64,000 bases of DNA from assembly GCA_002085155.1 (NCBI GenBank), contig NASX01000006.1, positions 62,001 through 126,000 of the forward strand. Direction: 5' to 3'. The stretch is from Sorangiineae bacterium NIC37A_2 (GTDB taxonomy: Bacteria; Myxococcota_A; Polyangia; Polyangiales; Polyangiaceae). The translations under genes were made by a program, and so were the position numbers. The notes beneath the pieces are model-generated. The model had not been told where the DNA came from, did no database searches, and worked only from the letters and a program-made list of their open reading frames with translations. The stretch's first letter is position 1. Each line of letters begins with the position of its first letter. Positions 26,183-38,347 of this stretch are shown piece by piece.

Positions 26183-27102
26183 GGTGCGCTCTCCTTGCTG
26201 GCGCTCGTGTCAGTCGAGTCAGCGCCCCACCGCGGGGCGAGGCGCAGGAGCGCTGCCGTCATCGCGATGGCGAGGTCTGCGTCCTCGCGGCTGAACTCCT
26301 CGTCGGGAACGCCATCGTGATGCGCGGGCGACAAGAAGAGCTGCATCGCGATCTGCAGCGCCGAGAAGCGCTCGGCCTGGGACAGGTTGCGCGCGTTCGT
26401 CTGGAGGAACTGTGCGACCTCGTCGGGTGCCCGACCTCCGAAGCCAGCGGTCTTGAGCGCGTCGAGCGCGATGCGGCACTCCTGCACCGTGTTTCGGTAG
26501 CGCCCGTCGTTGCGCGCGTTGACCGCGTTCACGACCCTCTGTCGTCCTACGGTGGTGGACTCGGGCCCCTGCGCCGGAAGCCGCAGCTCGGTGAGGATCG
26601 AGTCGCAGTAGCCGACGCTCTTGAGCACCGCGAGCCACTGCTCTTTCGGTACCTGGAACTGAAATGGATACTGTTGACCGACAGGCACGATGTGAATGCC
26701 CGGTGCATCGCCTGGGTTCTGTCCGACGGCGAAGGGATGCGCGACGAGCGTCATCACGAGCTCGATCGATCGGCCATCCCGAGCGGTCTCCAGCGCAACG
26801 AGCGCGGCCGTCGAGAGCGAAAGCGTGAAACGGACGCTGCTGGTCGAGGAATGACGCGGTGGCACGATCACCTGTGCCGGGTTCGGAAGCGCGAACCCAA
26901 GGTTCAGCTCATCGCGAGCGAAGCGCGCCTTGACCTCGCTTGGCTGAGGCACAAGGGAGATCGGGCCGTTCTCCTTCCATGGCCACTCGACCAACCGAAA
27001 CGCGACGTCGATGTGAAGCTGCGCGCCGCCAGCGATTCTGCTTCCGCGCACGGTGGCCCCCGTCGCATCCGCGACAATGCGCTGTCCGACCTGCCAGCTC
27101 AT
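26179..27102 (-). CDS. Hypothetical protein embedded in the type I RM #2 / YhcG operon
   Basis: 307 aa; overlaps both neighbouring genes by 1-4 nt; no recognisable catalytic motif. Confidence 0.6.
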   Translation of the reverse strand: MSWQVGQRIVADATGATVRGSRIAGGAQLHIDVAFRLVEWPWKENGPISLVPQPSEVKARFARDELNLGFALPNPAQVIVPPRHSSTSSVRFTLSLSTAALVALETARDGRSIELVMTLVAHPFAVGQNPGDAPGIHIVPVGQQYPFQFQVPKEQWLAVLKSVGYCDSILTELRLPAQGPESTTVGRQRVVNAVNARNDGRYRNTVQECRIALDALKTAGFGGRAPDEVAQFLQTNARNLSQAERFSALQIAMQLFLSPAHHDGVPDEEFSREDADLAIAMTAALLRLAPRWGADSTDTSASKESAP

Positions 27103-28274
27103 TAGAGCTCTCCTGCGAAGGCGCGGGCCACGAGGGAGTTGAAGAGGTCGTCGTCGTGCAGCAGTGCTCGCTCGATGTCCGCGTTCGTCGCGCGAATGCG
27201 ACGCTTGGCTGTGGCGAATTTCTCCTGGGCAGCGACGGGAGGGAGCAGCACCTCGACGCTGCGAATGTCGTCAAAGTTGAGCCCCGCCTTCACACCACCC
27301 TTGTTACGCCGATTGACCTGAAGCTGGCCCCCTTCCGAAGCCAAGAAAGCGCTGAGATATTCGGCGTTGACACCTTGAGGCCGGAGGATCGCCAGGTGCT
27401 GGTTGATGAAGGCGCGCGGCAAGCTCGCAGGAACCACGGCAGTTCGTCCGAGATCGGCAGTGATGCTCAGGAGCACATCGCCCGGCTTCGTCTCGGTTCG
27501 TCTCGCTTCGGCTGAATCAGGCGGTTGCACAAAGGCAACGTCGGACAGGTCGAGCAAGTCTTTCCGAACGTTCTGAATGCGGAGGAATGTCTCGCCGCTA
27601 TCAGCGTAGTGCTGCGCCCACCCCCGCGAGCCGCTTGTGAGGAACGCGAGCAGCTCCCCCAATGGCTTCACCGGCCACCCCTTCGGGTTCGTCACCGGGT
27701 CGCCGAACATCTCTAGGAACGCCGAGCGCAGCAGCTCCTCCGTGAGGGCGATGGCCTCCTTGCGCTTGCGGCGGATGGCGTCGGCCTTGTCGAGGATGTC
27801 GGCGATGCGCCGCTGCTCGGTGAGGGGAACTCGAGGCACCTCCAGTGCCTTGAGCTCATCAAGCGGGATGTTGTCGGCCGTTGTGCCTCGCACGGTTGTG
27901 AGAAGTCGAGGCTCCGCGCTCTTCAGAAAGAATGCGAGAAACCTCGGGTCGATGCCGTCGCCGCATAGAAGCCCCTTCATGTCCTGGTTCAAAGTGACGG
28001 GGCGACCGGCGATCGCGACCGGAAGCGTGTGCTTCAAGACCCCCGAGCGCACCACCACCAGGACCGTACCCTTGGGCACGAGCTTCGCCGGAGACGCGGC
28101 GACAGCCTCTTCGGAGATGTGATCCTCGCTGTCGAGGATCATCCAAACCTTCATGTCCTTGGGGGTGACCCACGGGATCGTCCCCTCGAAGAACTCCGGT
28201 CGAGACTTCGACGGGGTTCCACCGCCGACAATACTGACTAGCGAACCGAGCGGCGTTGTCGGAACTGTCCTCAC
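27102..28274 (-). CDS. hsdS: Type I restriction-modification specificity subunit S (system 2)
   Basis: Two TRDs; [68 protein letters not shown]. Confidence 0.93.
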
Positions 28275-29779
28275 AGCATCGCCTCCAGCTCGCTCAGGTC
28301 CCTCGCGATCTCGGCCTCGAGCTTTCGCAGCTTGGCGATGAGCTTTTTCGGCGGCTCGTAGGTTACCGCTTCGTGCTTCGCTTCCTTGTAGCGGTTGATC
28401 GAGAGATCGAAGTCCTTGGCCTCGATGTCGGCCACCGGCACCATGAAGTGCTTCGCCGTCCTGTCGGTGTCCTTCTTCGCGCTCCGCTTCCGCCAGCGCT
28501 CGAGCGCGTCGGGCAGGTCGTTGTCGCTCACCACGTCGCGCTTGTCGTCGAGCGAGAAGCCGTCGGCGCCGACGTCGTAAAAGAAGACATGGTCGGTCTT
28601 GCCGCCCTTCGTGAAGACGAGGATGGCCGTCGACACGCCCGCGTAGGGCTTGAACACGCCGCTCGGCAGCGAGATCACCGCTTCGAGCTGGTTGTCCTTC
28701 ACCAGCATGGCGCGCAGCGCGGTGTGCGCCTTGCTCGATCCGAACAGCACACCGTCGGGCACGATGGTCGCCGATCGGCCTCCCTTCCTGAGCATGCGCA
28801 GGATGAGCGCAACGAAGAGCAGCTCGGTCTTCTTGGTCTTCACCGCCGAGGTCAGCGTGGGGTGCACGTCGCCCTCGTCGAGGCTGCCCTTGAACGGAGG
28901 GTTGGCGAGGATGACGTCGAAGCCGCCGGTGGCCTGCTTGCCGAACTTCTCGGGGAAGCTGTTCGAGAGCGTGTCCTGGTAGTGGATGTCGGGGTTGTCC
29001 ACACCGTGGAGCATCAGGTTCATCGAAGCGATGCGGAGCATGGTCGCGTCGAAGTCGAAGCCGTGGAACATCCCACTCTGGATGTGCGCGCGGTACGGCT
29101 CGAGCAGGTCACCGGTGTAGATGGTCTCGCCCGCCTCGCCCTTGACCTTTCCTTTGGCTGAGGTGTGCGTCTCGAGCAGGTACTGCATCGCACCGACGAG
29201 GAAGCCCGCCGTGCCGCAGGCCGGATCGCCGATGGTCTCGGTAGGCTTGGGCTCGAGCAGCTCCACCATGAAGCGGATGATGTGGCGGGGCGTGCGGAAT
29301 TGGCCGTTGATGCCCGCCGTCGTGAGCTTCGAGAGCAGGTACTCGTAGAGATCGCCCTTTGCGTCGCCGTCGGTGATGGGCAGCTTGTCGATCATGTTCA
29401 CCGCCGAGACCAAGAGGCTCGGCTTCTGGATCATGAGCTGCGCGTCCTGCATGTACTCGGCGAACGTCGTCCCGCCGTTCAGCTTGCGGAAGTGCGGAAA
29501 CACCTCGTCGCGCACCACGCGCAACATCTCGGCGGCGTCCTTCTGCTTGAAGTTTTTCCAGCGGCGCGGGTCGGTCGAGCCCTTGAAGCGACCCTTGAAC
29601 GGCTTCTTGGTGCGCTCAGCGCGCCGCTCGCCGGTCGTCTCCATCACGTCGAGCAGCCGCGCGAACATGAGGAACGAAATCTGCTCGATGACGGTGAGCG
29701 GGTTGGTGATGCCGCCGGTCCAGAACTCGGTCCAGAGCTTGTCGATGTCGCTCTTCTGTTGGGTCGTCAGTGTGCTCAT
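28271..29779 (-). CDS. hsdM: Type I restriction-modification N6-adenine methyltransferase subunit M (system 2)
   Basis: [58 protein letters not shown]. Confidence 0.95.
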
Positions 29780-32700
29780 GATGCTTGGATCGCAGGCGGG
29801 TGGTCGCTTGGGGTCGCCCGCTTCGGTTCGAAGACGCTCAGGATGGCAAGAAGCTCATCGACGTCTCCGGGATTGGTGAAGATGCCGTCCACGCTCTCGG
29901 CGTGGAGGTTCGTGAATGGGGGCTCGTACAGGCGTTCGAGCTCGATGCCGCCGTTCTGGGCAATGTAGTTCTGCAGCACTTGCAGGAAACGGAGCTGCTG
30001 CGAAGACAGGCGCGGGTGCTTGTGAACGAAGGCGCTGAACGCCTCGGCGACCGCCTCCGTGTCGAGGCCCACGAGCCCTCGAAACACCGTGAGCAGCGAA
30101 CGGCGCGTTTCCGGGTCGTGCCCGGCGAGGTGCTTCACGTTGGCCTTGTCGTCCATCTCGAGCACCAGCTTGGCCAGCTCCTCGAGCTCGCTCTCCTGCA
30201 CGCCCTTGCCGGCGCGGATGCGCTGCAAGATAGCGTGATTCGAGAAGTGCTCCTTGAGCACCTTCTCCACGCGCGTCCGGTACTCGACGAGATCGAGCCC
30301 TTCGAGCTTCGGGATGTACGCCTCGGCGATATGGCCATCGTCGGTCACGTCGAAGACCTGCGGCGCCACGCGCGTCGTCGTGGGGAGCTGCTGGTACTTC
30401 ATCACCGAGCGCAGCTCGCTCCGCAGCCCTTCGAGCTGCTGGATCTCGACGGTGCTCCAGAAGCCCTTGTCGCGCACCCGCTTGATAGAGTCGGCCTTTG
30501 CCTTCACCGGCTGGAGGTTCTTGCCGAGCAGCTCCACAGCCTCCTCGACGCGGCCCTTCAGGTCCTGCACCTTGGGCCCGCTCCGGCCGCCCTTGAGCAG
30601 CTCGATCTGCAGGCGGGTCATGAGCAGGTCGAAGCGGTAGGCGTCTTCGTCGCCTCGGATACTCCGGAGGTGCTGCAGCGGGGCGACGATCGACAGCAGA
30701 TCGGCTTTGGTGGCGGCAGCAAAGTGGTGGACGCGATCGCCGTCCGCGAGCTGCGTCAGCTCCTTCCACTTGTCGCGGGCGTCGATGGCGTTCGTGTCTC
30801 GCACCGCACGGATGTCGCCGAGCACCTGCTGCTCGGCGATGCCGATGGCGGCCTCGTCCATCTTGTCGATGGCGACCGAAAGCAGCTCCACGCGCGCCTC
30901 GAACAGGTGCTGAAGCAGCGACTTCTGCGGCGCTGGCTGCGCCTCTTTGTACTTCTCGTCGAAGAACCAGAAATTTTTCCAGTGGTCGAAGATGAGAAAC
31001 TCGGTCTTGTCCTTGCCGGGCCCGAAGAGGTCTTTGCAGAGGCGCGTGCCGCGACCGATCATCTGCCAGAACTTCACATACGACTTCACCGGCTTGGCGA
31101 AGACCAGGTTCACCACCTCGGGCACGTCGATGCCGGTGTCGAGCATGTCGACCGAGATGGCGATGGTCAGCTCGTCATCAGGGTTCTTGAAGTCGTCGAT
31201 GAGTTGGTCCGCCTTCGCTTCCTGATTGTCGATGACGCGACAGAAGGCCGAGCCGTACTGCGGATAGAGCTCGCTGAAGACCTCAGCGAGATGCACCGCG
31301 TGCAGGTGGTTCCGCGCGAAGACGATGGTCTTGCCGACATGCTGACCCGTCGCCTCGCGGATGCCGCCCTCCATCAGCGAGCGCCAAATGGCGCGCGTGG
31401 TGTCCTTGTTGAAGAAGTACTTGTCGAGATCGTCGCTGTCGTAGTCGACGGCCTGCGCTTGTGGATCCTGGTCCTCGAGCTCTGAGCGCTGTTCGGCAGT
31501 CATCTGCGAGTAGCGGAAACCGTCGCGTGAGAACTTGGTGCTGACCTGCATCACGCGGAACGGCACGAGGTAAGGAGGCCTCGACTCGATGGCCTGCTGG
31601 AAGTCGAAGGCCGAGGTGGGATCGCCGTTCTCGCAGGCGAAGAGCTCGTAGGTGTTACGCTCGATGAACTTCACCGGCGTCGCGGTGAGACCGACCTCCA
31701 ACGCGTCGAAGTACTGGAAGAGCGAGCGGAACTTCTTGTAGATGCTGCGGTGCGACTCGTCGGCGATGATGAGATCGAAGAAGCCGACGTCGAAGTCCTC
31801 GTACGCCTTCATCATCGCCGGGTACGTCGCCAGGTAGATGCGCTTGTCGCGATCGTTGGCCGTCGATGCGTCCACAATCACGCGCGGCTCACCGGGCATG
31901 AACTCCTTGAAGACTCGGTCGGCCTGACGGCGCAGCTCTTTGCGATCGCAGAGGAAGAGGATGCGCTTTACCCAGCCAGCGCGCATCAGCACGTCGCACA
32001 GCGAGATGGCGACACGCGTCTTACCGGTGCCGGTCGCTTGTACAACGAGGGCCTTGCGAAAGTTGCTCTCGAAGCGCTCGCACACGCGCTTGACCGCTTC
32101 GAGCTGGTACATGCGGCCCGCGATCGCGAGGTTCGGTTCGACGTGGGCAAGCGCCTTCTTTCCAATGCGCTGGTGGACCAAGTACTCGAGGCTGTCCTTC
32201 GAGTAGAAGCCGTAGACCTTGCGGTACGGGTAGCCCTGCGCGTCGTCCCACAGGAAGACGTCGATGCCGTTGGTGAAGAAGATCACGGGGCGCACGCCGG
32301 TCGCTTTTTCCAGCGCGTCGGCGTACTGGCGCGCCTGCTCGCCTCCTCTGCGCGCATCCTTCGCGGTCTTCTTGGCCTCGATGACGGCCAGCGGCTTGCC
32401 GTCGTCGCCGTAGAGAACGTAGTCGGCGGAGCCGTCGCCGCTCGGTGTGGGCAGGCCCGTGAGCTTCAGCTCCTGCTTCACCTGCTCGGTACTCTTGCCG
32501 TGGATACCGACGTTCCAACCCGCCGCGAGCAGGGCCTGGTCGATGAGGCGGCGGCGCGTGGTGGCTTCGTTGAACTCGAGGGCCGAAGCGACCTTCTGAC
32601 CCTCCTCGCGGAGCTTGGTCAGCTCGCTCGCGTTCTCCTCGGCGGTGCGCGTGGCTTCCGTCGCGGCGCGTTCGGCCTCGAGGCGCTTCTTGGTCTCCTC

Positions 32701-33210
32701 GTCGAGGCGCTTGAGGACGGACTCGTACTTGGCTTCAGCGAGACGTAGTTTCTCGAGGGCGTCCTTGGTCTTCGCGGCGCTCGCCGGCTCGGGCGGCGGC
32801 GGCATGTACTTCGGCGTGGCCTCGAGCTTTCCGCCATCAACCTGCACGAAGAACCACCGCGCGATGTCGAAGAGCTGCGCCAGGCACTCGAGCGAGAGCT
32901 GGCTCGTAATGGGCCGGCGCGGGTGCGCGGCGTGGTTGCCGGCCCTACGCACGGCGTGGAGCTTGTTCTGGACGACCTCGGGCACCGCCTGTCGGAAGGC
33001 GGTCTCGTTCAGTAGATCGTTGAGGTTGTCGGAGTACGGCGGACGTAGGCGGTAGTTCTCGTAGATGGCCCCGACCGCGTGCTCCACGAAGCTGCGCTGC
33101 TTGATGAGCGAACTCGCGGGGTCTTCGTGGGCGTAGCGCTCGGCGAAGCCTGCGAGATCGGCCATCACGGCGCGGCGCGCGCGGAGGAACTCGAAGTTCA
33201 CTGATTTCAT
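29776..33210 (-). CDS. hsdR: Type I restriction endonuclease subunit R, EcoEI-type with DUF4145-like N-terminus (system 2)
   Basis: [44 protein letters not shown] nuclease motif; [43 protein letters not shown]. Confidence 0.95.
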
Positions 33211-33292
33211 GAACGGGACCTCCTCTCCTCGCGCGGCGCTCCTGAGCATGTCGGGCCCCTAATCACAAAACGTGCCAGTAATGCGCGCTCCA

Positions 33293-34795
33293 TCAGGTCT
33301 GCACATCATAGGTCTTCAGCCAGTTCGTCAATGTCTGGTAGCTTGGTAGGCCCACGAGCTCTGCCGCCTTGGTCTTGTTGCCTTGCGCTTCGTCCATCGC
33401 GCGCTCGAGGTAGTGGCGCGCGACTTCTTTCAATAAGTTTCGCAGGTCGAAGCCGCCGCCAAGCGGCCGCCCGAGCACCTCCGGCCGTATGGTGGTGGCC
33501 ACGGGAAGCAGCGCTTCTCGCACATCCTCTGACGAAATAGAGGCACCATCGCTCCAGATCGCGGCGCGGCGCAGGGTGTTGCCCAGCTCGCGCACGTTGC
33601 CCGGCCAGGGGTGGGAAAGCAGAAGATTCCTTGCACCAACAGAAAGTTTCTTCTCTCTGAAGCCGGGCTCGCTCTGGGCCTCGCGGTTCACTTGGACGAG
33701 CAGGTGGTCGATGAGCAGGCCTACGTCGCCCTGACGCTCGCGGAGGGGCGGCAGCTTCAGGACGGCCACCGCCAGCCGGTAGAAGAGGTCCTCGCGGAAG
33801 CGACCCGAGGCGATCTCCTCGATCAGCGTGCGGTTGGTGGCGGCGACGATACGCACGTCGACCTTCACGGGCTTGCTCTCACCGAGGGGCACGATCTCGC
33901 CCTCTTGAATGGCGCGGAGCAGCTTTACCTGCGCGGGTCCAGGCAGCTCTCCCAACTCGTCGAGGAAGAGGGTGCCGCCGTCGGCCTCCCTAAAGTGGCC
34001 CTTACGGTCCGCGCTCGCGCCCGTGAAGGAGCCCTTCTTGTGCCCAAACAGCTCCGATTCGACCAGCTCGGGGGGAATGGCGCCGCAGTTGACCGCGATG
34101 AAGGTCCTGTCGCGGCGGGGGCTGGCCCGATGGATGGCTCGGGCGAGCAGCTCCTTGCCGGTGCCCGACTCGCCCTCGATGAGGACTGGCACGCTACGGA
34201 TGGCGACGCGGCGGGCCCGCTCAATGAGCCGACTCATCACGCGGCTCTTGTGGATGATGTCGGCGAACTCGGGCGCCTCCGGCGGCGCGCCGGTGGCGAT
34301 GTGCTTCAGGCGCTCGTCCTGCTCTCGGAGAAGGTCGGGCAGGAACTCGGCCGAGAGGTCGAAGGGCACCGAGGCCGTGCGGACGCCGTGCTCTCGCGAC
34401 GACTCGATGAGCTCGGCGGGGAAGCGGGTCTTGCCGAGGATGATCCACACCGCCGCCATCGCGGGCGTGCCGGGTGAAAGGTGAAAAGAGAGCTGCGCGT
34501 CCTTCGCCTTGCCGAGGGCGTGCTCCACACCGCGTACCGCGGCCTCGTAGATCTCGCCGAAGTTGGTCGGACCTGAGAGCTCGTGCGGCAGGACCTCGAC
34601 ACGCGTCTTCGTGCGGCCCCTCAGCCACTTGAGGTACGGCTGGACGAGCTTGTCGTCGTAGTCGGAGAGGAGGAAGGCCTCGTGGAAGTCGCGGCTCGCG
34701 AGCGCCTGCGCGATTGGCCCCTGGCCCACCGACTCACACTCGGTGGGCGCCCTCAGATCAGTCTTGCCAAGCCAGGCGACGAGAACATTGCGCAC
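33293..34795 (-). CDS. Sigma54-dependent transcriptional activator with N-terminal CARF-like (RtcR-type) sensor
   Basis: VRNVLVAWLGKTDLR...AQLSFHLSPGTPAMAAVWIILGKT Rossmann/CARF-like sensor; VLIEGESGTGKELLARAIH, KGSFTGASADRKGHFREADGGTLFLDELGELP AAA+ region; Fis-type HTH NKTKAAELVGLPSYQTLTNWL; ORF track TTG start at 34810, GTG at 34795 preferred. Confidence 0.88.
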   Translation of the reverse strand: MRNVLVAWLGKTDLRAPTECESVGQGPIAQALASRDFHEAFLLSDYDDKLVQPYLKWLRGRTKTRVEVLPHELSGPTNFGEIYEAAVRGVEHALGKAKDAQLSFHLSPGTPAMAAVWIILGKTRFPAELIESSREHGVRTASVPFDLSAEFLPDLLREQDERLKHIATGAPPEAPEFADIIHKSRVMSRLIERARRVAIRSVPVLIEGESGTGKELLARAIHRASPRRDRTFIAVNCGAIPPELVESELFGHKKGSFTGASADRKGHFREADGGTLFLDELGELPGPAQVKLLRAIQEGEIVPLGESKPVKVDVRIVAATNRTLIEEIASGRFREDLFYRLAVAVLKLPPLRERQGDVGLLIDHLLVQVNREAQSEPGFREKKLSVGARNLLLSHPWPGNVRELGNTLRRAAIWSDGASISSEDVREALLPVATTIRPEVLGRPLGGGFDLRNLLKEVARHYLERAMDEAQGNKTKAAELVGLPSYQTLTNWLKTYDVQT

Positions 34796-34806
34796 CTTCG
34801 GAGGAT

Positions 34807-34852
34807 ACAAGAGTGCTTACGGTACAACAAGAGATCTTGTTCGCCACAAGAG
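34807..34852. promoter_or_regulatory. Candidate upstream activating sequence: three phased ACAAGAG repeats plus inverted repeats
   Basis: ACAAGAG at 34807, 34827 and 34846; AACAAGA-GA-TCTTGTT at 34826-34841; GCTTACGG 34815-34822 / CCGTAAGC 34853-34860. Confidence 0.65.
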
Positions 34853-34907
34853 CCGTAAGCCCTCGAGAAGGCGCGAGTATTAAGGGACCGCGCGCGGGTC
34901 TACCGCT

Positions 34908-34922
34908 TGGCCCGGCGGTTGC
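34908..34922 (+). promoter_or_regulatory. Candidate sigma54 (-24/-12) promoter TGGCCC-N5-TTGC
   Basis: TGGCCCGGCGGTTGC; one mismatch to TGGCAC-N5-TTGC; 16 nt before ATG at 34939. Confidence 0.6.
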
Positions 34923-34938
34923 AGTGAGGCCCGGCATC

Positions 34939-36627
34939 ATGATGAACAAGAATCGCACCGAGCCCCTGTCAGTCTCTGTTTTCTTCGCCGCCGAGGAGGT
35001 GACCCTCGATCTCCGCGATCGCCGCCCCGACAGCATCGCGCTGTTCGGCGGTCTCGACGAGCCCGCGCGCGACCAGCTCGCGCACGACGCGTGGGCCATC
35101 GGCCTGCGTGCTCTCTCCAACGCTCACCAAGCGGCCCAAGAATCGAAGCTGAAGGACATTGGATCGGCGCTCCTCGGCGACATCGACAAGCAGCTCAAGG
35201 TCTACGTCGAGCAGCAACAGCAGACGATCGGCGCGGTGCTCACGCGCTTCTTCGACCCCAAGGACGGCCAGGTCACGCAGCGCCTCTCGGCGTTCGTCGA
35301 CGATCAGGGCATCCTGGCGCGGCAGCTCCAGAAGTTCCTCGGCCCGCAAGGTAGCGTGCTCGCTGAGACGCTGGCCAGGCAAGTGGGCGAGAGCAGCCCG
35401 CTCTTCAAGAAGCTCTCCCCCACCGACAGCACTGGCCTGGTGAAGGTGCTGGAGGCGCAGCTCCGTGCCGTCATGGGCGAGGGGCACGCCGAGCTTTTGC
35501 GCGCGCTCGATCCGCTTGCCGAGGACGGTGCCGTGGCGCGCTTCCTCAAGAGCCTGCGTGAAGAGCTGAAGGGCGCCGACGAAGATCGCCAGAAGCAGCT
35601 CTCGGCGGCACTCGCCGCGCTCGACGCCAACGACGAGCAGTCGCTCCTGAGCCGTCTCGTGCGCGAGACGGAGCGCTCGCGCCGCGCGGTCTTGTCGGCC
35701 GTGAATCCCGAAGACCCGGCCTCACCGATGGCAATGCTGAAGGCCAGCCTCTCGAAGCTGTTGCAGGAACAGTCGGCCTCGCAGCTCGCCCTGGTGAAGC
35801 GCCAGGAGGAGCGGCAGGTGCAGTTCGAGAAGGAGGTGCGCGAGGCGCTCGTGCGCATCGAGACCAAGCGCACGCAGGAGCTGAAGAGCACACGCGGCGG
35901 GCTGGTGTTCGAAGACGAGGTGATCGCCTTCGTGCGACGCGCGACGCAGGGGGCCCCGTGTGTGTTCGACGCCACTGGTGCGACCGCGGGTATGGGCCGC
36001 AGCAAGAAGGGTGACGCCGTGGTGCGCTTCACCCAGGAGAGCGCGTTCGCGGGTGCGGGCGTGGTCTTCGAAGCCAAGCGCGACGCGAGCTACTCGGTGC
36101 AGAAAGCGCTCGACGAGCTCGATGCCGCCCGTAAAAACCGCGACGCAGCGGCGGGCGTCTTCGTCATGGCGCGGTCGCACGCGAGCGACGTGTTCCCGCG
36201 CTTCGCGCGCTACGGCAATAACGTGCTCGTCGTGTGGGATGACCAGGACCCGTGGACGGATGCCTACCTCCACGCGGCCGTGCTGCTCGGCGTCGGCCTC
36301 GTCACGCGGAGCAAGACCGTCGGCGACGAAGGCGACATCACCGCTCTGCGCGACATCGAAAAGCGCATCGAGGACGAGCTGGCCCGCCTCGAGAAGATGG
36401 AGAAGCACAGCGAGAACATCCGCAAGAACGTCGACGGCATCACTGACGAGATCCGCAAGGCGCAGAAGAAGCTCGACCTGCTGCTGCGGAAGGCCCGCAG
36501 CACGCTGACCGCGCTGAATGTGGAGGTGACGGACGAGGCGATCGAGCTCGAGAGCCCGATTGCCCTGCCGAAAGGCTCGTTCGATGCGGCCATATCAGCG
36601 CTTCCCAGCGGCGGCGAGGTTGCGTGA
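34939..36627 (+). CDS. Coiled-coil protein with putative PDDEXK-like nuclease domain (DUF2130/RmuC-like), divergent from the CARF-sigma54 regulator
   Basis: GGLVFEDEVIAFVRRATQGAPCVFDATGATAGMGRSKKGDAVVRFTQESAFAGAGVVFEAKRDASYSVQKALDELDAARKNRDAAAGVFVMAR, flanked by long heptad-rich helices. Confidence 0.65.
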   Translation: MMNKNRTEPLSVSVFFAAEEVTLDLRDRRPDSIALFGGLDEPARDQLAHDAWAIGLRALSNAHQAAQESKLKDIGSALLGDIDKQLKVYVEQQQQTIGAVLTRFFDPKDGQVTQRLSAFVDDQGILARQLQKFLGPQGSVLAETLARQVGESSPLFKKLSPTDSTGLVKVLEAQLRAVMGEGHAELLRALDPLAEDGAVARFLKSLREELKGADEDRQKQLSAALAALDANDEQSLLSRLVRETERSRRAVLSAVNPEDPASPMAMLKASLSKLLQEQSASQLALVKRQEERQVQFEKEVREALVRIETKRTQELKSTRGGLVFEDEVIAFVRRATQGAPCVFDATGATAGMGRSKKGDAVVRFTQESAFAGAGVVFEAKRDASYSVQKALDELDAARKNRDAAAGVFVMARSHASDVFPRFARYGNNVLVVWDDQDPWTDAYLHAAVLLGVGLVTRSKTVGDEGDITALRDIEKRIEDELARLEKMEKHSENIRKNVDGITDEIRKAQKKLDLLLRKARSTLTALNVEVTDEAIELESPIALPKGSFDAAISALPSGGEVA

Positions 36628-36657: not shown

Positions 36658-36870
36658 ATGCCCAAGCTCCGCCGCGATGTTCAGCCCTTGCTCGAGAGGT
36701 CGATCGATTCTCTGACCTGGGGAATTGAGCTATTCAACCGCCCCACCGACACAGCGCGATGGCATGCGGTCCCGATGCTACTCCATCACGCGTTCGAGCG
36801 CGTGTTGAAGGCTGCGATCCTCCAACGCCAGGGTCGACCCGGAGGTCACCCGCTCCGCGCTGGTGCCCGG
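36658..36870 (+). pseudogene. Truncated DUF3644-like N-terminus
   Basis: MPKLRRDVQPLLERSIDSLTWGIELFNRPTDTARWHAVPMLLHHAFERVLKAAILQRQGRP..., then low-quality frame running into the convergent gene. Confidence 0.5.
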
Positions 36871-36937
36871 GACGACCGCGGAGGCTTTCGCGCCCTCGCG
36901 AACGACAAACCACGACGCTTACGGTGTGAGAGCTTTG

Positions 36938-38347
36938 TCACCACCGCACCTTCCACATCCCGCCCCCCGTGCAGGAGCCACAGTGCTGCAGGCTTTTCCA
37001 TTCGTACTCCGCGCCAATGATCCGAGCGAGTCCCTTTTTCGCCTTGTCTGCCTTCTCGGTACTTTGCCAGGAGTTGTGTCCACAATCGCCAACACGGAGG
37101 AAAACATCATGAGAGGGGCTTGAGTAACGCTTCTTATAGAAACGTACCTCGCCGGGCTGGGGCAGCCTCTCGTCATCCTGCTCTGGAGCATCTGGCTCAA
37201 CCTCTGCGGTCTCATTAGCACTCGCCTTCGCCTGCCCCAGTTGGAAGATGAGTCCTTGCTTTTCGGACTCGAGGCGTTGGACCTCCACGCGCAGTCGCTC
37301 GATCTCTTCGTCGCGGGCCGACAGATCACGCCGGAGCTGGTCGTTGTCGGCCGCGTAGGAATCGGCAATGGCCCTGAACTCCTCGAGCGAGGTCGCTTTG
37401 GCTTTCGTTTCTTCGAGTATGGCAGCCTTGGCTTGCAATTCGGTCAGTTCTCGGCGCGCGTTCGCTCCTCGAATGTCATCTATCTCCTTCGGGCGGACCA
37501 CACTCGCAGCTGAGGCGCTCATGATCGTCCTCCGGAGCTGCCGCCGGATGCGTTCCAACGCGAGCCGCTCGTCTCCCTCAAGGCCATGAAGCCTCGTGGC
37601 CATCCAGAGGGGGTGTCGGTACGGCTCGTCTCGGCTTGAAAGCCGCGGCCAGTAGATGCGAACTGCGCCGTCGTAACAGGAGAAGGGCTTGCCGAGCCTA
37701 TCCGTGAGCGCCCATGACGCGTCCTCGTCAACTGCATAGACATTGGCGACGCCTGCAAGATCGCGTGCGAGCTTCTCGTCGAGCCCACGTAGAACGGGGT
37801 TCCCATTGACCCTCGAGACGACAACGAAAGGCACGGTGCGTTCGGGGGTCAGAATCTCAAGCGCGAGCGACTCGCCAGCGTCGAAGCCATCAACGTTTGA
37901 TAGCTCCCGCAGGCGAGAGGCGCCGTGGTACAACGGGCCGAGTTCATCGAGCAGATCACGGACGACCCCTGGACACTTCGGGTCGACATCGATACGCGTG
38001 ATGGCTGTCGAGACCGAACCAACCTCCATCGTGACAAATGCGACAACGCTCTTGTGTCCGACCGTCACCGACACGGTCGTTACGAACTTGCGCCCTTCCT
38101 TTGTCACTTCCACTAGTTCGTACATGCGCCACGACCGCTCGCCGTCGATCGCGTCGACCATTCGGTAGCTGGCGTCACTTCTGTCAACCGCAACATAGGT
38201 TCCGCGGCCATCGACCAAGGGCGCAGCCCCCTTGCTCGCCAGCCAGCGTTCGATCACGGCACGAATGCGCTCCCCTTCGGCCTTCCTGGCATCCGACCAC
38301 TGCAGGTGGTTTGTTCGTTCGAGAAGGTAGGCTGCGATTCTCTGCAT
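36938..38347 (-). CDS. Hypothetical coiled-coil protein with C-terminal Cys/His motif
   Basis: 469 aa; central heptad region; C-terminus HDVFLRVGDCGHNSWQSTEKADKAKKGLARIIGAEYEWKSLQHCGSCTGGGMWKVRW. Confidence 0.65.
   Translation of the reverse strand: MQRIAAYLLERTNHLQWSDARKAEGERIRAVIERWLASKGAAPLVDGRGTYVAVDRSDASYRMVDAIDGERSWRMYELVEVTKEGRKFVTTVSVTVGHKSVVAFVTMEVGSVSTAITRIDVDPKCPGVVRDLLDELGPLYHGASRLRELSNVDGFDAGESLALEILTPERTVPFVVVSRVNGNPVLRGLDEKLARDLAGVANVYAVDEDASWALTDRLGKPFSCYDGAVRIYWPRLSSRDEPYRHPLWMATRLHGLEGDERLALERIRRQLRRTIMSASAASVVRPKEIDDIRGANARRELTELQAKAAILEETKAKATSLEEFRAIADSYAADNDQLRRDLSARDEEIERLRVEVQRLESEKQGLIFQLGQAKASANETAEVEPDAPEQDDERLPQPGEVRFYKKRYSSPSHDVFLRVGDCGHNSWQSTEKADKAKKGLARIIGAEYEWKSLQHCGSCTGGGMWKVRW

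Follow-up and report, generated by a model that had tools for sequence, protein, structure and literature searches.

An RtcR-like sigma54 activator predicted to fire a divergent nuclease and a type I restriction operon from tandem dyads, one pair of them within its own gene

In silico analysis of a 64,000-nt stretch of the genome of a soil bacterium, Sorangiineae bacterium NIC37A_2 (assembly GCA_002085155.1, contig NASX01000006.1, positions 62,001-126,000; hereafter the window) points to a two-armed locus in which, as we consider highly probable from sequence comparison, an RtcR-like sigma54 activator inducibly fires a divergent PD-(D/E)XK nuclease gene together with a type I restriction system. 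The direct evidence consists of conservation, geometry, co-occurrence and synonymous-site selection, from which we infer binding, activation, the ligand and the induction of restriction. According to this model, the CARF-AAA+-helix-turn-helix (HTH) protein would bind tandem ACAAG-N4-CTTGT dyads and, upon its CARF domain meeting a ligand, would remodel sigma54-RNA polymerase poised at two -24/-12 promoters. The protein would fire the divergent nuclease gene from the intergenic dyads, which precede the predicted +1 of that gene by about 110 bp, and the co-directional hsdR-hsdM-hsdS operon from the intragenic dyads, which precede the predicted +1 of the operon by about 390 bp, with both the nuclease and hsdR transcripts predicted to begin 1-5 nt before the ATG, i.e. 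to be near-leaderless.

The regulator gene occupies 33293-34795 on the minus strand, with a GTG start at 34795 as judged by alignment, and the nuclease gene 34939-36627 on the plus strand. For comparison, loci were collected by searching genomes at class level with the nuclease as query and by one scan of a genome collection. Regulator-linked loci were found in Myxococcota and in metagenome-assembled genomes labelled Gemmatimonadota, Planctomycetota, Lysobacterales and Eisenbacteria, labels that may be wrong. Locus comparison showed that the hsdSMR-regulator/nuclease module is kept as a whole in relatives, and the gene order, hsdS-hsdM-hsdR-regulator on one strand with the nuclease divergent, is intact in most loci.

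The candidate nuclease promoter, TGGCCC-GGCGG-TTGC (TGGCCCGGCGGTTGC), lies at 34908-34922 on the plus strand with a predicted +1 at about 34934; it has a single mismatch to TGGCAC-N5-TTGC, with the GG and GC 10 bp apart that a -24/-12 element calls for. The genome contains an rpoN gene. Although this is the sole TGGCNC-N5-TTGC match in the window, 0.6 such matches are expected by chance, and the match is not significant by itself. The first-pass annotation of this DNA had assigned the element to the nuclease and had named conservation of the intergenic motifs as a check, which we ran. An orthologous element, TGG[CA]NC-N5-N[TC]G[CAT], was present in 21/21 regulator-linked loci (window included) as well as in the truncated locus L041, giving 22 sequences of GC-rich DNA in which T1, G2, G3, C6 and G14 are invariant, G7 is nearly so and the spacer varies freely; GG-N10-G is thus common to all 22. 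At the nuclease start the element was found in 21/21 regulator-linked vs. 0/6 regulator-free homologues (Fisher 3.4e-6), a difference that is not simply one of distance because several regulator-linked nucleases (45-49% identity) are as divergent as most of the regulator-free ones. The very short leader remarked upon earlier agrees with the relatives, the nuclease ATG being located 12-16 nt past the -12 in 20/21 loci; the exception, L045, has its ATG 34 nt past the -12 and a longer leader with GGAG before the ATG (L045 7925-7980). Assuming a sigma54 start some 12 nt beyond the -12, the nuclease leader would be 1-5 nt, and this predicted near-leaderless transcript is itself conserved.

Between the two divergent genes, the strings quoted in the first-pass annotation all stand where it had placed them, namely ACAAGAG at 34807, 34827 and 34846, AACAAGAGATCTTGTT at 34826-34841, GCTTACGG and CCGTAAGC at 34815-34822 and 34853-34860, and the promoter string above. 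Its phased ACAAGAG array holds up as tandem sites 20 bp apart but not as three direct repeats, since the aligned loci define the unit as a 14-bp dyad, roughly ACAAG-N4-CTTGT, in two tandem copies spaced by 20 bp (by 21 bp in the L053/L056 clade). In the window these are two candidate upstream activating sequence (UAS) dyads: dyad 1, ACAAGAGTGCTTAC (34807-34820), begins 12 nt from the regulator start codon (12-14 nt in the main clades), and dyad 2, ACAAGAGATCTTGT (34827-34840), lies exactly 20 bp from dyad 1 and is the top single dyad of the window. The three ACAAGAG copies scored 13.8, 19.5 and 1.2 bits with the matrix, and the third is neither a dyad nor conserved, hence our rejection of the direct repeat. 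The inverted arms GCTTACGG/CCGTAAGC were also set aside as hairpin or site, since L035 and L036, the closest relatives, do not share them. The intergenic pair scores 33 bits, with just one other pair in the window clearly above 3 bits, and ranks first among 11-18 kb in 13/13 main-clade loci with a leave-one-clade-out matrix, which settles the second half of the conservation check. Scanned by pattern only, the 5-Mb source genome contains two separate ACAAG-N4-CTT copies with a 20-bp spacing at this site alone. ACAAGAG by itself is not rare in the window (9 found vs. 5 expected), and three copies within 46 bp were seen in 0/300 Markov simulations of 64 kb; as the single-window counts of both ACAAGAG and the -24/-12 element are unremarkable, significance rests on the comparison of loci. 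With their conserved spacing of 20 bp, the tandem dyads would face the same side of the helix upstream of the promoter, as is typical of a UAS, and the regulator is predicted to bind there.

Given that the intergenic dyads abut the regulator start at a fixed position, the bound regulator probably limits its own, non-sigma54 transcription, a form of autoregulation. The regulator start lacks an evident Shine-Dalgarno sequence, and a TTGTAT/TTATAT-like element overlaps dyad 1 (34795-34826, minus strand), suggesting a near-leaderless regulator transcript that would be blocked by the bound regulator. It could then be argued that these dyads are chiefly an autoregulatory operator, with the nuclease and hsd promoters activated from them secondarily or from elsewhere. 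The 12-nt distance between dyad and regulator start is indeed kept even where no such divergent sigma54 promoter was found (L094 and L100, also L098). However, the distance from the dyads to the nuclease promoter is nearly constant in the main clade (about 77-81 bp), and the other promoter, described below, retains an upstream dyad of its own; we therefore regard a chiefly autoregulatory role as rather unlikely.

The enhancer and promoter that had been proposed to link the CARF regulator to the nuclease are supported by conservation, but that proposal was incomplete, having missed a promoter for hsdRMS and a candidate UAS within the regulator gene. Directly 3' of the regulator stop and on the same strand, TGGCACGTTTTGTGA (33277-33263) comprises a second candidate -24/-12 promoter, TGGCAC-GTTTT-GTGA (33263-33277, minus strand), located 13 nt 5' of the ATG of hsdR (33249). 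With GA at the -12 and two mismatches, it fits the consensus less fully than the nuclease promoter, and strict consensus searches miss it because its -12 reads GTGA. The element was found in 15 loci, at exactly 13 nt from the ATG in 14 of them, a conservation from which we surmise that the regulator probably drives hsdRMS too. On the minus strand, hsdR (29776-33249), which encodes the type I restriction subunit, is followed by hsdM (28271-29779), which overlaps the hsdR stop (ATGA), and by hsdS (27102-28274), which overlaps the hsdM stop; owing to these overlaps, induction of the nuclease subunit would bring up the methyltransferase as well, barring an internal promoter.

The sole other strong pair in the window (21.8 bits) is a tandem dyad (AGAAGATTCCTTGC / AGAAAGTTTCTTCT, 20 bp apart) within the regulator coding sequence at 33621-33654, the candidate UAS for hsdR. 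It recurs at homologous regulator codons in most loci and, with a matrix derived from intergenic sites alone, was ranked first in the regulator coding sequence in most loci. It also coincides with the stretch of the gene lowest in GC at third codon positions (0.52 vs. 0.84, z -5.9, 20 loci). In a synonymous-site test with 4000 synonymous recodings per locus, scored with the intergenic matrix, the dyad beat all or nearly all recodings in 25/32 loci (z 4-9, P up to 0.0007), while z was about 0 in the remaining 7/32. Values of this size imply selection at the DNA level, and protein conservation as the source of the motif is thereby ruled out.

A function of this dyad other than hsdR enhancer, e.g. 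in looping-based autorepression or as part of an internal promoter in the regulator gene, is in our judgment improbable, about as much so as the operator reading of the intergenic pair. It draws on the distance of about 390 bp to the predicted hsdR start and on L053 and L097, in which the downstream promoter is present and the intragenic dyad absent. On the other hand, loci without the dyad mostly have no recognized downstream promoter or a divergent target, as exemplified by L106 and L107, where hsdR is divergent, by L104, with a divergent TerY-like cassette, and by L054, L062 and L105. Returning to the regulator as activator of both arms, several observations weigh against it: 1) a UAS at -390 is beyond the usual distance, and the two loci just named (L053 and L097) break the pairing of dyad and downstream promoter, as does L106, with an unexplained downstream TGGCAC element but no dyad; 2) GA replaces the canonical GC at the -12 of 8/22 nuclease promoters and of 11/15 hsdR promoters; 3) the intergenic dyads have diverged in the Polyangium/Sorangium-type clade (6-7 loci); 4) the loci share descent, and their counts are not independent. 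That the sites are chance consensus matches and sigma54 control is absent, for which the insignificance of the -24/-12 match in a single window might speak, is contradicted by all the conservation evidence and is extremely improbable.

The regulator itself has the make-up of an enhancer-binding protein, with an AAA+ domain (Pfam Sigma54_activat, 7e-69) carrying a GAFTGA-type sigma54-contact loop and a C-terminal Fis-type HTH (HTH_8, 1e-5). The loop reads GSFTGA in the window and GAFTGA, GAFTDA or GAFSGA in relatives; GAFTDA is found in the regulators of L038, L039, L040, L042, L044 and L045. An LSPGTPAM motif is conserved. The PADLOC model RtcR_PspF2 (CARF_AAA_HTH) matches over its full length (6e-204, residues 8-503 of the 505-residue open reading frame), and the NCBIfam RtcR model NF038308 matches at 3e-106 with 356 bits vs. 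a cut-off of 650, leaving the protein outside the RtcR equivalogs. Like RtcR, which in Enterobacteria governs the RNA repair operon rtcBA, it is a predicted CARF-AAA+-HTH sigma54 activator divergent from a target operon that would be sigma54-driven. The rtcR gene is transcribed from a sigma70-type promoter (PMC9879122), and tRNA halves with a terminal cyclic phosphate are bound by the CARF domain of RtcR (PMC7790460). By analogy, the CARF signal here is likely a nucleic-acid or nucleotide alarm, but a search of the genome for RtcA and RtcB found neither. Instead of rtcBA, the regulator here would control a nuclease gene along with a type I restriction operon, and there are two candidate enhancers, one of them within the regulator gene.

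Type I restriction is usually thought to be constitutive, since modification must precede restriction. If sensor-driven, sigma54 promoters on hsdRMS and a partner nuclease would make restriction inducible and signal-gated, and our data suggest that DNA restriction of the classical kind need not be always on and can instead be induced in response to an alarm. The self-protection problem posed by a co-induced methyltransferase is the most interesting consequence. Tentatively, and short of calling it probable, we speculate that restriction, perhaps self-restriction of the unmodified chromosome, serves as an alarm response with a co-induced second nuclease, the coupling enhancer being written in the codons of the sensor.

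In the available part of Makarova et al. 2014 (PMC4012209), RtcR-like regulators are described as often adjoining restriction-modification systems, with sigma54 activation predicted. The protein family and the restriction-modification association are the same as here, but the argument in that part of the article is from gene context and domains, and the promoters, enhancer sites, divergent nuclease and intragenic site are not found in it; the present work supplies candidate cis-elements for the activation so predicted. RtcR-headed restriction superoperons have been reported in the CoCoNuT study (PMC11090510), where an RtcR-like regulator likewise heads restriction genes and a coiled-coil nuclease (ShdA, RmuC-like) adjoins type I restriction-modification genes. 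In contrast, the module here comprises the regulator, hsdRMS and the nuclease (no dedicated search for CoCoNuT genes was made in the loci), and the nuclease, which resembles DUF2130, is encoded divergently with a predicted sigma54 promoter of its own. Enhancer-binding protein sites within coding sequence have a parallel in Myxococcus xanthus, with its intragenic sigma54 promoters and Nla28 sites (PMC7910581), whereas the candidate site here lies in the gene of the activator itself, where the choice among synonymous codons preserves it in distant genera. In a partial literature search, we found no description of these promoters, of the ACAAG-N4-CTTGT dyad or of an enhancer inside its own activator's gene.

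Further regulators were obtained in a phylum-wide CARF search. Candidate TGGCACG promoters lie 3' of the regulator stop in eight regulator loci without the nuclease; in several they precede hsdR-type genes, and in L098 they precede a VWA/PP2C/kinase (TerY-P-like) cassette. The regulator would thus seem to serve as a general-purpose starter for various defence cassettes, and its binding-site matrix can now be used to look for further targets. TerY-P-like cassettes adjoin relatives of the regulator at L098 4339-7272 and L104 9779-15249; the sigma54-like promoters at these cassettes are co-directional in the former locus and divergent in the latter.

The nuclease has conserved PD-(D/E)XK-like residues (E325, G358-D359 and E378-A-K380) and a weak match to DUF2130 (Pfam PF09903; 21 bits in the window and 23.4 in L006, both below the gathering cut-off of 26.7). 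In a fold search the best PDB matches were McrC at E 7e-3, which is not decisive, with modest model confidence (pLDDT 66). A plasmid search found no near relative. Directly 3' of the nuclease gene is a truncated DUF3644/PDC-S19-like open reading frame (36658-37020), which we left out of the system since it was present in L035 only among the scanned relatives. Adjoining the defence locus, a minus-strand gene at 36938-38347 matches PADLOC HEC-07 (1e-35).
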